DNA of 5,523 nucleotides from assembly GCA_007117405.1 (NCBI GenBank), contig SKGP01000090.1, forward strand, positions 1-5,523. Direction: 5' to 3'. A program made the translations under genes and the position numbers. Of this stretch, positions 1,096 through 5,523 are shown piece after piece; position 1 is the first letter of the stretch, and every line of letters begins with the position of its first letter. A model generated the notes under the pieces. That model saw nothing but the letters and a program-made list of their open reading frames with translations. It did not search any database and had not been told where the DNA came from. The stretch is from Candidatus Woesearchaeota archaeon. GTDB lineage: Archaea > Nanobdellota > Nanobdellia > Woesearchaeales > UBA583.

Positions 1096-2271
1096 ATGAC
1101 AAATTCTCTTGAGACAATAATAAATAATGCATCATATCCATTTAAAGAGATACTTTTATCCTCTGTTGCAATATTTTCACTTAATAATCCAAATATGACT
1201 TTTATACCTGAATATGAAAATAGCAAAAAAAATTTAATAGAATCATTTATATATCAAGAACAAAAAGATCAGAAAATAAAAATAGAGTATAGAGTAAACT
1301 CTGGAGACACAGTAAGTTCAATTGCAAAAAGTCATGGCATTTCAACTGAAAATCTACTTAATCAAATGGAAGGTAGAGAAATTATAAGAGTCGGAGAGAA
1401 ACTAAAATTTGAAATAGACAGTAATTTTTTTAACGGATATATTCCCGGTAATATCAATCACAATAGAAAAAATGCCCTTTCTAGAACACCACAAGAGATT
1501 GCTGAGGACAGAAGAAGATTTGGAATTCAAGGAATGGGGGAATTTCTAGGTTATATACCAAATTCAAAGTCTGTTTCCTATGATATTGAAAGATATGACC
1601 ACTTATCACTATATTATGATTTATTCAAAGAAACAGCTGAAAAACATGAAAATCTAAATATTGAAGATTTATTAGCACTAATTGGAATTGAAAGTGGAGG
1701 AAATCCTTGGGCAGGTTCACATACAGGCGCACTAGGATTTGGACAGACTATTGCAGCAACATTTAATCCAAACAATAATTCAAACGGATTCAATCCATTC
1801 AATCCTTATGAAGTTATTCCTGAGGTTGGGAACATGCTTAACAGATACAAAAGACAATATGGTCCTATACTTGGATTTATAGCATACAATGCAGGACCTG
1901 GCAAAGCAAACGAAGCAAGAATTAGAGCAAATGAATTAGGAATTTCAATCTCATCTCCAGAGATAGTAAATGTAAAAGACCAAGATGGAAGATATATACT
2001 ATCTGAGGAAGCAAGAAGATATTACTCTAAAATAAATCGAGAAAGAAATATACTAAATCAAATTCCATTACTAGATGAAAGTAACTCAAAAAAAAGAAAA
2101 GAAAGAAAAGAAATACTAAAAAGTTTAGGATACATAAATTCAATTGAATTAAATAATGAAAAATTTGTATACTATTTAAATAGAGAAAAATATGAAAGAG
2201 AAGTAGCAAGAGCATATTTAAGATACCACAACGATATGATAAAGGTTGGATATGTTAATTCATACTACTAA
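1096..2271 (+). CDS. LysM-domain lytic transglycosylase (SLT-type, goose-lysozyme fold)
   Basis: The protein has 391 residues. The ATG is the first start after an in-frame TAA at 1078. Residues 1-40 contain a short hydrophobic stretch (19-29, ILLSSVAIFSL) after a single lysine, at best a weak signal or anchor. Residues 65-107 are a LysM domain (YRVNSGDTVSSIAKSHGIS...VGEKLKFEI), which in this family binds N-acetylglucosamine polymers. Residues 185-275 are the SLT catalytic domain: IGIESGGNPW with probable catalytic Glu199, GALGFGQ (211-217) and AYNAGPG (263-269). A basic stretch (331-340) and a Tyr-rich tail ending VNSYY follow and are not recognised. SLT enzymes cleave the MurNAc-GlcNAc bond of murein to form 1,6-anhydroMurNAc. 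An Asn-rich loop (223-239) lies where the domain usually carries a variable insertion. The gene overlaps the stop of the opposing gene by 4 bases. A T5 run (2273-2277) right after the stop may end transcription. Confidence 0.88.
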   Translation: MTNSLETIINNASYPFKEILLSSVAIFSLNNPNMTFIPEYENSKKNLIESFIYQEQKDQKIKIEYRVNSGDTVSSIAKSHGISTENLLNQMEGREIIRVGEKLKFEIDSNFFNGYIPGNINHNRKNALSRTPQEIAEDRRRFGIQGMGEFLGYIPNSKSVSYDIERYDHLSLYYDLFKETAEKHENLNIEDLLALIGIESGGNPWAGSHTGALGFGQTIAATFNPNNNSNGFNPFNPYEVIPEVGNMLNRYKRQYGPILGFIAYNAGPGKANEARIRANELGISISSPEIVNVKDQDGRYILSEEARRYYSKINRERNILNQIPLLDESNSKKRKERKEILKSLGYINSIELNNEKFVYYLNREKYEREVARAYLRYHNDMIKVGYVNSYY

Positions 2272-3068
2272 ATTTTTCTTGTTGAAGTAGCTACCCACAA
2301 ACCAACTTCTTCATTTCTTTCAATTCCATTTGGAATAATAAAATCAAACATCATAGCACTAAAAACTATTTTTATATGATTATTAGTCTCCCTATATCTA
2401 AAAAAAACCTTTTCAGGGTCAGCCCTTACTGCAAATGTTCCTGCATTATAAGATGCCGCAAGAACAACTATCTCTTCTGGAGTAAATTTAGCTTTTGATA
2501 CATCAATACCATGAACTCTTCCTGCTTCTTTAATAAGTCTTAAAGCACCTAGATAGTGATCTTCAGACTTATTAGGGTCAAGCCCCATTCTTTTTAGTAT
2601 ATTTGGCATTACCTGTAGTGCAGATATGGCTCCTGCGCTGCTAGTTCCAACATTTGAACCAAAATTAGATTCTGCAATTGCATAAGCCATAAGTAATTTT
2701 GGGTTAACACCCTCTTGTCTTGAATATATATTTATCATATGTGCAAGAGAAGGGTTTGCTAAAGCAAGATTTATTGTCCTATTTTTTTCATCAATAAGAC
2801 TTGAAGGGTCAATACCTAACTTTGTTCTGTAAACACTTGGAACATTAAATCTTCTCCTAACTTGGTCTACACCAAAATACTTTCTATGTTCAATAAGATA
2901 TTTTCTTGCAGCAATAATTTGTGCACTTTCACCACTTATCGCCTGACCAGAAACTTCCGTATTTCCAGACCGATTACTTAATTCTGCTCCTGAAACATCA
3001 TTATTCAAAGGAGAGATGGATAAAATACCGCCAATTATTCCTGTTGCTATTTTTTTTGCAAATTTCAT
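2268..3068 (-). CDS. Secreted lytic transglycosylase (SLT family)
   Basis: The protein has 266 residues. The N-terminus is a classical signal peptide: basic MKFAKK, hydrophobic core at 7-20, and probable cleavage after VSGA (25-28). Mature residues 29-110 are a polar linker and helical lead-in without a recognised domain. Residues about 110-245 form the SLT domain: AYAIAESNFGSN with probable catalytic Glu133, GAISALQVMP (146-155, the usual GA.GLMQ.MP), ASYNAG (205-210) and the late ETNNHIKIVF helix (227-236, the usual ET..YV.KV). The expected reaction is non-hydrolytic cleavage of murein glycan strands outside the cytoplasm. It differs from the convergent LysM enzyme by its clear signal peptide, lack of LysM and SLT-subtype motifs, so the two are not a recent duplication. 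The start is the only ATG near the promoter, and no Shine-Dalgarno precedes it. The 4-base tail-to-tail overlap leaves no intergenic terminator. Confidence 0.88.
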   Translation of the reverse strand: MKFAKKIATGIIGGILSISPLNNDVSGAELSNRSGNTEVSGQAISGESAQIIAARKYLIEHRKYFGVDQVRRRFNVPSVYRTKLGIDPSSLIDEKNRTINLALANPSLAHMINIYSRQEGVNPKLLMAYAIAESNFGSNVGTSSAGAISALQVMPNILKRMGLDPNKSEDHYLGALRLIKEAGRVHGIDVSKAKFTPEEIVVLAASYNAGTFAVRADPEKVFFRYRETNNHIKIVFSAMMFDFIIPNGIERNEEVGLWVATSTRKI

Positions 3069-3183: not shown

Positions 3184-3204
3184 ATTCAATAAAAAAAAAT
3201 GTAT

Positions 3205-3927
3205 ATGGGTTTATTTAGCAAACATAAAGAAGAGAAAAACAGTGTAGCTCCTCCTCCGGCAGCACCACCTGTTCCAAATTTTGGCAATGGGATAAATTCT
3301 GCGCCTATGCCACCTCAACCACAGGCACCAAAGTACGAGTCTGCAGGAAATATTGTCCCACCTCCATTGCCAGGGGGAAGTTTAGAGGATATAAAAAGCA
3401 TAGTATCTGAAAGTTCTCAGAAAAAATCAGAAGAAATTAAAGAAAACGAAAGTACTAATTCTGGTAGCGAAATGAATAGTACAAGTACTGATGATTTTGA
3501 CGACTCGCTTTTTGATTTTTCAGATTTAAACATTCCAGAACCAAATTCAGAGACTAATCCTGAAAAAAATGCTAATTATCACTCAATTGACAATATTCCA
3601 AAAAATGATTATTCAATTGGCAAAGTAGATTTGGATGAAAGAGATGTTTCTGCAAAAAGGTTAGAAAATCAAGATTTTATAAAAAACAAAAGTTACAACT
3701 CAGTTCCACCAGGAAATGAAAACTTTTTTGTAACAACATCACAATTTAAAGCACTTTTAGAAATTGTTGAAAGCGTTAAAATGAAAGTAAAAGAGGCAAA
3801 TGAAAAACACCTAAGATTACTTGACATTAAATCTGAAGAAGATATAGAATATGAAAATTTAAGAAGAGACTTCCAATATATTGAAGATAAATTATATGAA
3901 GCTGATAGCATACTATTTGAGAAATAA
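3205..3927 (+). CDS. Unrecognised protein: Pro-rich and acidic disordered N-terminus, helical C-terminal domain
   Basis: I do not recognise a named family. The protein has 240 residues if it starts at MGLFSK (3205). An ATG at 3199 would add two residues (MY) but lies too close to the TATA box. Residues 1-12 are short and basic. Residues 14-57 are proline-rich (APPPAAPPVP, MPPQPQAP, VPPPLPGG). Residues 58-170 are Ser/Asn/Asp/Glu-rich and probably disordered, with an acidic patch DDFDDSLFDFSD (97-108). Residues 171-240 look like a short strand (FFV) followed by a helical hairpin or coiled coil. There is no signal peptide or membrane segment, so a cytoplasmic scaffold or adaptor is possible. The C-terminal domain aligns without gaps to the next gene's product. 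It heads a three-gene operon and ends 2 bases before the next ATG. I recall DPANN proteins with a similar Pro-rich plus helical layout, but that is memory rather than a search. Confidence 0.75.
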   Translation: MGLFSKHKEEKNSVAPPPAAPPVPNFGNGINSAPMPPQPQAPKYESAGNIVPPPLPGGSLEDIKSIVSESSQKKSEEIKENESTNSGSEMNSTSTDDFDDSLFDFSDLNIPEPNSETNPEKNANYHSIDNIPKNDYSIGKVDLDERDVSAKRLENQDFIKNKSYNSVPPGNENFFVTTSQFKALLEIVESVKMKVKEANEKHLRLLDIKSEEDIEYENLRRDFQYIEDKLYEADSILFEK

Positions 3928-3929
3928 AA

Positions 3930-4139
3930 ATGATAGGCAAAAAAAGAGAGATCTATATTAAAATAGAAAAAATAACTGAAATTGTTGAACTGCTCAAAAA
4001 TATAAAGGAGCAAGAAGAGATTTTAAGAGAATTATTTCAAAAATATGATAAAATAAACCTTGAAGAAAACAAAATTTTTGAAAACTGGAACAATTATATG
4101 GAGGATATTGTTCAAAAATTAGATCATGTAACACTTTAA
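3930..4139 (+). CDS. Small helical protein, paralogue of the C-terminal domain of the upstream protein
   Basis: The protein has 69 residues. After a basic start (MIGKKRE) comes a probable short strand (IYIKI, residues 8-12) and then two amphipathic helices broken near KINLEEN. No named family is recognised. A gapless 59-residue alignment with the C-terminus of the upstream protein (from ENFFV) gives 11 identities by my count, including the pattern I..EE....EN and a final KL, plus many Ile/Val/Leu exchanges. It therefore looks like a free-standing copy of that module. The ATG lies 2 bases after the previous stop and the gene ends 2 bases before the next ATG. No Shine-Dalgarno is visible, so coupled translation is likely. 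That position in a tight operon and its homology support a real gene despite its length. Confidence 0.72.
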   Translation: MIGKKREIYIKIEKITEIVELLKNIKEQEEILRELFQKYDKINLEENKIFENWNNYMEDIVQKLDHVTL

Positions 4140-4141
4140 AA

Positions 4142-4708
4142 ATGAAACCGAAAAAAAATCTTAAAAAAAAAGCAGTTATATCTAACAAAGATTCATACAA
4201 TGATTTATTTGTCTGTATGAGTGAACCTATGCTGAAAAGAAAATATCTTCTACTCTCAGTAAAAAATTCTTTAATTGTCCAAGAAGAAATGGATAAAATC
4301 CAACAACTTAGAAAAGAAAAGTCTGCAATACTAAATCAAATTAAAAAAAATATGGAATCTATTAATTCTGATTATCAAGAATTAAAAAAGCTTTTACCAA
4401 ATGTAAAAAATGTGCTCTCAATAACAGAACAAGAACTTGGAAACATAGAATCTGATATAGAACTATTAAAATCAGATATAAAAAATGATGAAGAAAAAAT
4501 CCGTATAGAAGAGAGTATGAAAGAATCTATTTTAAGTGGAGAAGGAATAAATTCACACCAAAAATCATCATTAAAAGATGAGATAAAATCTCATTATGAT
4601 ATAGAAAAGAGACCAATTATTCCAAGTAAAACAACTAAAAATATATCAAAATTAGATAGAATCCAAAATAATCTTAAAGTTATTGAATCTAAATTAAATC
4701 AGCTTTAA
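4142..4708 (+). CDS. Unrecognised coiled-coil protein with basic N-terminal tail
   Basis: The protein has 188 residues. The N-terminus is strongly basic (KPKKNLKKK). Next comes DLFVCMSEP (21-29), possibly a short strand and turn, then a helix (30-44). A long heptad-like coiled coil runs from about 45 to 130, interrupted near LLPNVKN (84-90). A polar linker (130-164) leads to a final amphipathic helix (165-188). There is no signal peptide, membrane segment or catalytic motif. The gene is third in the operon, 2 bases after the previous stop and without a Shine-Dalgarno. The basic tail could bind nucleic acid or the acidic linker of the first protein, but this is inference. I recall DPANN proteins with a similar SEP motif followed by a coiled coil; this would need a search. 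Confidence 0.75.
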   Translation: MKPKKNLKKKAVISNKDSYNDLFVCMSEPMLKRKYLLLSVKNSLIVQEEMDKIQQLRKEKSAILNQIKKNMESINSDYQELKKLLPNVKNVLSITEQELGNIESDIELLKSDIKNDEEKIRIEESMKESILSGEGINSHQKSSLKDEIKSHYDIEKRPIIPSKTTKNISKLDRIQNNLKVIESKLNQL

Positions 4709-4730: not shown

Positions 4731-5357
4731 TTATTTCTTATTTTTTTTCTCCCCATACTCTTTTTCAACCTGTTCGAGTATTTCTTTACTATTCATTATT
4801 TTATAAAAGTAAAACATTACAAGCAGAGCAACCATTAATATTCCAACACCTACAAAACCAAAATTCTCATAGCTTTTTCCAAAATAATACCCTATAAATA
4901 CAAATATTGAAGACCAAATTGCAGAAGTTATAAAAACAATAGGAAGAAATATCAACCTATTCATTTTAGCTATTCCTGCGGGAATTGGAATGAATATCTT
5001 AATTGGATTCACCAATTTTCCTATAAACAAAAAAAATACTTGTCTCTTATTGAATGCAAGTTGAAATTTTCGAATTTCCTTATAGGGGTCTGTAAATTGA
5101 AAAAAAAATTTAATGAATTTTATTGAATAATCTAAACCTTTTCTTCTAGAGATTTCATACAATATCCAATTTCCCGTTGAATGCCCCAAAGCACCAATAA
5201 ATATAATCCAAAATAAACTTAGATGGCCTGTTGCTGCAAAATAACCAGCAATTACATAAATTATCTGACTAGAAGGAAAGGATGTTATACCATTGACAGT
5301 TATTAAAAAAAATATTGCGAAATAACTGAATTTGATAATCAATTCTTCAATTGTCAT
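4731..5357 (-). CDS. DedA/VTT-family (SNARE-associated) membrane protein
   Basis: The protein has 208 residues, a normal DedA length. Hydrophobic segments lie at about 8-22, 31-56, 130-159 and 165-187, and the C-terminus (190-208) is charged. Family landmarks are the P-rich re-entrant region FPSSQIIYVIAGYFAATGHLS (27-47), GNWILYEISRRKG (62-74), GKLVNPIKIFIPIPAG (113-128), AKMNRLIF (130-137) and GYYFGKSYE (156-164). DedA/VTT proteins act in membrane phospholipid homeostasis; some flip or recycle lipid carriers such as undecaprenyl phosphate or phosphatidylethanolamine, and E. coli members depend on proton-motive force. The usual acidic residue of P..SE is Gln31 here, and the usual arginines of RxxPxxR are Lys114 and Lys120. 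The ATG lies 2 bases after the chorismate mutase stop with no Shine-Dalgarno, so the two are co-transcribed. Family assignment is firm; transported substrate is unknown. Confidence 0.85.
   Translation of the reverse strand: MTIEELIIKFSYFAIFFLITVNGITSFPSSQIIYVIAGYFAATGHLSLFWIIFIGALGHSTGNWILYEISRRKGLDYSIKFIKFFFQFTDPYKEIRKFQLAFNKRQVFFLFIGKLVNPIKIFIPIPAGIAKMNRLIFLPIVFITSAIWSSIFVFIGYYFGKSYENFGFVGVGILMVALLVMFYFYKIMNSKEILEQVEKEYGEKKNKK
4741..4748 (+). terminator. T8 tract, probable terminator of the coiled-coil operon
   Basis: Eight consecutive T bases on the plus strand lie 33-40 bases past the stop of the third operon gene, within a T-rich stretch from 4728. Archaeal RNA polymerase ends transcription at such T-runs without needing a hairpin. 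The tract lies inside the 3' end of the convergent DedA-like gene, where it encodes part of the Lys-rich tail. Confidence 0.45.
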
Positions 5358-5359
5358 TT

Positions 5360-5523
5360 TTATTTATTAACGACTTTATTTTGTTCAACTTTTGATTCTT
5401 CAACAATTAAATCAAAAAGATTCTGAACTAAATTTTCATTTAAACCTAATTCTCTTGCTCTATTACTAAGAGTTGCAAAAACCTCCCTTTCTCTATCTGG
5501 TTGATATATTTCAATTCCATTAT
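5360..5523 (-). CDS. Chorismate mutase, AroQ type, C-terminal part (gene continues beyond the window)
   Basis: Only the last 53 residues are present; the gene begins beyond the right edge. The segment IYQPDREREVF matches the AroQ motif (v.d..RE..vl), and the ending LFDLIVEESKVEQ matches the final helix with its Ser and Gln that contact the substrate (Ser84 and Gln88 in the E. coli enzyme). Arg and Glu corresponding to E. coli Arg51 and Glu52 are present. The position usually held by Asp48 is Gln. AroQ converts chorismate to prephenate, the first step toward Phe and Tyr, in the cytoplasm. The protein ends 10 residues after the domain, so no dehydratase or dehydrogenase domain follows it; an N-terminal fusion cannot be excluded. 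The stop lies 2 bases before the DedA-like ATG. Confidence 0.8.
   Translation of the reverse strand, partial: NGIEIYQPDREREVFATLSNRARELGLNENLVQNLFDLIVEESKVEQNKVVNK

Follow-up and report, generated by a model that had tools for sequence, protein, structure and literature searches.

Proteins with murein-transglycosylase-like domains have already been described in archaea. Castelle (2021; PMC8204110) reported large extracellular murein-like transglycosylases in Pacearchaeota and Woesearchaeota and suggested that they bind and degrade bacterial walls, and Vigneron (2022; PMC9723730) suggested that Woesearchaeota may be vampiristic. From 2024, a paper in mBio reports such genes in three metagenome-assembled genomes, and a paper in the ISME Journal reports GH23 in many Pacearchaeota and in none of its own chimney genomes. 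A 2025 study in PLoS Biology (PMC12352652) puts the share of archaeal genomes with modular hydrolases at nearly 5%, with Nanoarchaeota prominent, and reports more than one such protein in 12% of the genomes having any and a secretion signal in 32% of the hydrolases. Here we describe two neighbouring genes, encoding proteins that we call A and B, on a contig of 5,523 bases (C18; its entire length is the window of this study) from a Candidatus Woesearchaeota archaeon of UBA583, which has been called a still nameless DPANN lineage (PMC9348778). With moderate confidence, we propose that A and B are SLT proteins of the lytic-transglycosylase kind (GH23-like), predicted to be exported, that likely cut the peptidoglycan of neighbouring bacteria at its backbone of N-acetylmuramic acid (MurNAc) and N-acetylglucosamine (GlcNAc). 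A preliminary description of this DNA, made from its letters alone, had suggested that the pair might extend this theme to DPANN; the theme is not new, as papers of 2021, 2022 and 2025 had proposed that such archaea turn enzymes of this sort on bacteria (PMC8204110, PMC9723730, PMC12352652). New here are the architecture of A, in which a LysM domain precedes the SLT domain, and the evidence for an empty site in sister genomes. The two genes lie tail to tail with overlapping stop codons (2271 versus 2268), so that a single shared transcript is impossible, and their features are as follows:

1096–2271, + strand: protein A, 391 amino acids (aa), with LysM, a family region of about 55 residues, SLT and a helical tail
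1288–1407, + strand: LysM domain of A, residues 65–104 (PF01476, E 1.4e-7 in the genome search and E 2e-6 in the protein scan)
1633–1938, + strand: SLT domain of A, residues ~180–280 (PF01464, E 2.3e-11 in the genome search; MltC alignment)
1690–1692, + strand: codon of the predicted catalytic Glu199 of A (YNAG at residues 264–267)
2268–3068, − strand: protein B, 266 aa, with a signal-peptide-like start followed by SLT; no wall-binding domain was found in it
2415–2738, − strand: SLT domain of B, residues ~111–217 (PF01464, E 1.0e-6 in the genome search; soluble lytic transglycosylase alignment)
2672–2670, − strand: codon of the predicted catalytic Glu133 of B (YNAG at residues 207–210)
2982–3068, − strand: putative Sec signal peptide of B, MKFAKK-IATGIIGGILSI-...VSGA (by eye and hydropathy)

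Both proteins had been called SLT proteins with intact catalytic motifs in the preliminary description, and this assignment held: the open reading frames (ORFs) lie where it placed them, both exceed the Pfam cut-offs (21.3 bits for SLT, 20.9 bits for LysM), and the catalytic glutamates align with those of solved transglycosylases. A scored 39.3 bits for SLT (E 5.5e-10) and 28.1 bits for LysM (E 2e-6), and B scored 27.7 bits for SLT (E 2.1e-6), the only family to pass in that protein. In profile alignments, E199 of A aligns with the glutamate of Escherichia coli MltC, shown as glutamine in entry 4cfo, and E133 of B aligns with the glutamate of a soluble lytic transglycosylase. Beside this residue, A and B keep the downstream Q and YNAG motifs; the columns E133, Q152, Y207, N208 and G210 are invariant across the family of B, and E199, Y264, N265 and G267 across that of A, where Q217 varies. 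The predicted folds of both proteins match lytic transglycosylases and are of the lysozyme-like SLT type. Read by eye against the usual anatomy of signal peptides, the start of B is Sec-like, and its hydrophobic stretch from residue 7 is among the two strongest in the protein, the strongest starting at residue 234; the N-terminus of A is weakly hydrophobic by hydropathy. Three relatives (P0003, L082:6746–8035 and L249:975–2207) begin instead with RRNFIK, RRSFLK and RRQFLR, which we take to be twin-arginine-like starts. Within the bin, a profile search at E 1e-3 matched SLT in A and B only, and the codon use of both is ordinary for this bin (z of 0.37 and 1.25, against 79 genes).

Both E. coli MltC and Pseudomonas aeruginosa MltD align with the SLT domain of the A family, catalytic glutamate included. 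MltD also carries LysM, but its LysM follows the SLT domain, whereas that of A precedes it and is separated from it by a region common to archaeal relatives. The two domains share a frame in six of the 60 related genomes searched, with SLT first in five of them and LysM first in the window alone. The predicted fold of B resembles those of soluble lytic transglycosylases and g-type lysozymes, with a match to the catalytic glutamate of the soluble transglycosylases; the solved members of that group are 500–600 aa long compared to 266 aa for B, and identity in the structural alignments is 13–19%. The proteins of Castelle's fam00969 have a murein-transglycosylase-like domain in DPANN genomes and were proposed to serve wall attack or attachment, as we propose here, a likeness that does not imply membership of that cluster; they reach up to 3,000 aa, whereas A and B are small (391 and 266 aa), lie side by side and include LysM in A. 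Like the modular hydrolases of PMC12352652, A combines one catalytic domain (SLT) with one wall-binding domain (LysM), although the proteins picked for closer study there carry an M23 peptidase, and B, in which Pfam finds only SLT above cut-off, would fall outside the rule of at least one wall-binding domain used in that work. In the literature searched, mostly without full texts, we recognised neither an LysM-first SLT protein nor such a gene pair in archaea.

The host had been presumed to be an archaeon, and our analysis agrees: the contig and its host are archaeal and belong to DPANN. The bin (502,376 bases in 94 contigs, 71.5% complete) holds one full-length 16S rRNA gene whose best Rfam family is archaeal (1333 bits), in line with the check by ribosomal genes that the preliminary description had called for. 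The BtuR-like protein encoded to the left of A has near-full-length matches in four of the five same-genus genomes, with identities of 51, 51, 47 and 38% over residues 1–349, 1–349, 7–324 and 18–319, respectively; no match was found in the fifth (G003), and those in other genera are weaker (27–43%) and of partial length. The tetranucleotide profile of the window correlates with that of the bin at 0.92, the values for 16 other contigs of the bin being 0.82–0.96, and one relative from another family reaches 0.83. Bacterial contamination of the contig was rejected on the synteny of its flanks with same-genus genomes. A search for mur genes, also proposed earlier, found no Mur_ligase_M in the bin at its 71.5% completeness, a family that also matches two archaeal controls, and no penicillin-binding protein (PBP) transpeptidase domain at that same completeness.

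We compared the genes around A and B with the corresponding loci of the same-genus genomes. In the window these genes are the following:

2–1051, + strand: BtuR/CobA-like protein with an additional N-terminal portion, truncated 5' where the contig ends; it forms the left border (Pfam CobA_CobO_BtuR, E 4.5e-36)
3199–3927, + strand: PPcc242, a proline-rich coiled-coil-like protein of 242 aa; right border of the locus (synteny with L080, L085 and L087)
3930–4139, + strand: cc69, a small conserved backbone protein of 69 aa (synteny)
4142–4708, + strand: cc188, a coiled-coil-like backbone protein of 188 aa (synteny)
4731–5357, − strand: VTT/DedA membrane protein, with 52% identity to its syntenic counterpart in G001
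5360–5521, − strand: chorismate mutase, truncated by the contig end (in G005 the counterpart precedes a replication factor C subunit)

Without A and B, the backbone of the window thus reads BtuR, PPcc242, cc69, cc188, VTT and chorismate mutase. The G005 locus runs tRNA methyltransferase, BtuR, PPcc242, cc69, cc188, a 226-aa protein, chorismate mutase and replication factor C. G004 has the same order, with 57% identity to G005 in the methyltransferase, 57% in the 226-aa-type protein and 73% in replication factor C; its chorismate mutase gives a weak Pfam match (25.1 bits versus a cut-off of 27) and no BLAST alignment to the G005 copy. G001 reads BtuR, PPcc242, cc69, cc188 and VTT. A and B are missing from the BtuR–PPcc242 site in all three of these readable sister loci, where the gap measures 143, 89 and 97 bases in G005, G001 and G004, respectively, versus 2,147 bases with A and B in the window. 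The remaining sites were unreadable or excluded: the G002 contig stops 98 bases after BtuR, no BtuR was matched in G003, and the second copy of this gene in G001 (C92) is flanked by different genes. The simplest reading is that the pair was gained in the host lineage between BtuR and PPcc242, although it may instead have been lost from the sister genomes. A search for mobile-element ends flanking A and B found no convincing repeats, only AT-rich imperfect ones. As to the backbone genes themselves, the extra N-terminal part that precedes the adenosyltransferase domain of the BtuR-like protein is kept across same-genus genomes, and Pfam gave no family match above cut-off for PPcc242, cc69 or cc188 (3199–4708). 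The VTT/DedA protein scores 59.8 bits against the undecaprenyl phosphate transporter UptA, far under the 300-bit cut-off; it is kept in G001, and another gene of ~226 aa, for which no Pfam match was found in the G005 copy, occupies the same place in G005 and G004.

The preliminary description had further held that A and B belong to distinct subtypes, pointing to two acquisitions rather than to a local duplication. Their different architectures, and the argument against a recent duplication, stand. No significant BLASTP similarity was found between A and B (best E 0.05, a single pair), B is 46–52% identical to P0003, and A matches other archaeal proteins across about 100–220 residues; because each has closer relatives elsewhere, a recent tandem duplication was ruled out. 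Proteins from three other families within the order share the extra N-terminal region of A. Among 5.8 billion proteins, in a search that relies on shared exact words, A recovered only itself and B only itself and P0003; no relatives of B were found in the genome_contigs collection, and none of B or P0003 in the viral_contigs collection. Two acquisitions from bacteria, on the other hand, were not borne out, since the nearest SLT domains of B within the order include three from the same genus and an approximately unbiased (AU) test did not reject A and B as a single clade (p-AU 0.91).

The starting set for the SLT phylogeny with bacterial and phage homologues that had been proposed as a check comprised 204 domain hits, 200 of them with E at or below 1e-3, and yielded 149 distinct domains of at least 60 residues and, after removal of near-copies, 142 (86 from phylum genomes and 56 viral). 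The tree used the 86 phylum rows, 19 of the 56 viral rows and three PDB pieces, its only cellular bacterial sample, for a total of 108 rows and 111 columns; 8 of its 105 inner branches are starred. The viral rows had been retrieved with the profile of the A family itself, which biases them towards A. In this tree, B groups with SLT domains of G002, G005 (two) and G108 with a Shimodaira–Hasegawa-like approximate likelihood ratio test (SH-aLRT) value of 92, and A groups with its family members from G188 and G073 and a row from G043 (81), close to viral rows. G163, the third member of the A family, was placed on the side of B (78), a misplacement that speaks against trusting the tree. Together with the AU result, the poor performance of the free tree search means that this phylogeny decides nothing about origin.

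Of 371 genomes of the phylum, 168 carry SLT domains, as do 116 of the 243 that are at least 90% complete. With SLT genes present in almost half of these related genomes, the pair well illustrates a theme already known. Among the 60 relatives, bin included, 36 carry SLT and 18 carry LysM, and 3 have a PBP transpeptidase domain; in the control set, SLT matched 8 of 14 genomes, all eight of them bacteria. The three transpeptidase carriers (G015, G004 and G053, at L211, L212 and L213) are surprising for archaea, and contamination is possible. At least two further genomes, picked by eye, have SLT genes close together: G159, where the pair is arranged head to tail, and G097, where a few ORFs separate the two. 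Some SLT genes lie on phage or phage-like contigs, one with tail sheath and tube (G001:C105, L091) and one with virion proteins (G004:C117, L089), and another contig with SLT (G001:C20, L006) has a PHROGs-family protein without known function next to a chaperonin; with such contigs in sister bins, the SLT counts contain some viral genes. SLT genes of G002, G005, G108 and G001 (L084, L081, L096 and L092) lie near genes for dihydrofolate reductase, thymidylate synthase or deoxycytidine monophosphate deaminase, and the thymidylate synthase gene of G005 reads as two separate ORFs. A general link between B-like SLT genes and genes for deoxythymidine monophosphate synthesis was considered and rejected, as only the G002 and G005 places show it among 104 short-flanked loci carrying SLT or LysM, some of which represent one and the same place.

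Several lines of evidence lead us to read A and B as peptidoglycan-cutting proteins: their SLT and LysM scores, aligned catalytic glutamates and fold matches to lytic transglycosylases; the archaeal 16S gene, the BtuR matches in four of five same-genus genomes and the empty site in three of three sisters; the failure to find Mur_ligase_M or PBP transpeptidase in the bin, with transpeptidase in 3 of 60 relatives versus SLT in 36; the bin-typical codon use of both genes; and PMC12352652, which by its title concerns archaeal peptidoglycan hydrolases that kill bacteria. We infer export, a murein substrate and a bacterial target for both. Chitin remains the main rival substrate, and it is unlikely, though conceivable, that A and B act on this or another GlcNAc polymer, such as an archaeal surface glycan, in nutrition or in remodelling the envelope of the cell itself or of an archaeal host. 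The nearest solved relatives of A and B by sequence profile are murein transglycosylases, and in neither protein are the 30 residues that follow the catalytic glutamate (E199 in A, E133 in B) found to include an Asp or Glu, although a second carboxylate would be expected there in a GH23 chitinase; this is a reading of spacing in the sequence rather than of structure. Secretion systems often include SLT domains, and the pair might accordingly serve the archaeon's own machinery, for example as VirB1-like space-makers for a secretion or pilus machine; Pfam recognised no secretion gene in the window and an archaeon is not expected to own a murein layer that needs opening, and we regard this as quite improbable.

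The resemblance of A to viral proteins bears on two further explanations. Its SLT domain has at least 108 relatives on viral contigs, of which 80 were kept (top identity 37% over residues 180–270), its nearest rows in the weakly supported tree are viral, and three SLT loci of the sister bins G001 and G004 (L006, L091 and L089) are phage or phage-like, all of which would suit genes for lysis or entry that belong to a virus or other mobile element within the archaeal chromosome. However, A and B sit among conserved chromosomal genes, which do not form a phage gene neighbourhood, no phage structural gene was found in the window with Pfam or PHROGs (the coiled-coil genes match weakly, at E 0.04 or worse), the viral set is biased towards A, and a scan with B and P0003 gave zero viral relatives, leaving only a slim chance for a viral role. 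SLT and LysM are also typical bacterial domains, and with the same phage or phage-like SLT contigs (L089, L091 and L006) in sister bins, one might ask whether a bacterial contig was misbinned with an archaeon; flank synteny with same-genus archaeal genomes, best BtuR matches within the genus and a tetranucleotide correlation of 0.92, in the range of the bin, make this extremely improbable.

Lytic transglycosylases leave 1,6-anhydro-MurNAc ends, and the pseudomurein of archaea lacks the MurNAc-GlcNAc linkage. If A and B cut bacterial peptidoglycan, B could be released through its Sec-type signal as a diffusible cutter, while A could dock on GlcNAc-containing glycan via LysM and cut locally. Each would use one glutamate as acid and base, leaving 1,6-anhydro-MurNAc ends, and the outcome might be a local loosening of the bacterial wall for feeding, competition or attachment. 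Going further, A and B could be seen as an exchangeable DPANN antibacterial cassette, a LysM-anchored cutter and a diffusible one acquired together at a single chromosomal spot, with which an archaeal epibiont would attach to and open bacterial cells, making bacteria its hosts or prey, an idea that we put forward tentatively and consider rather doubtful.

The frequency of SLT (168 of 371 genomes) versus that of PBP transpeptidase (3 of 60) suggests a widespread trait in a group in which murein synthesis seems rare. As A and B are small and far easier to express than relatives with open frames of more than 2,000 residues, the question of their activity is testable. DPANN archaea are usually regarded as symbionts of other archaea. 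If A and B do work on bacterial walls, these archaea would be directly equipped to feed on bacteria, to compete with them or to cling to them.
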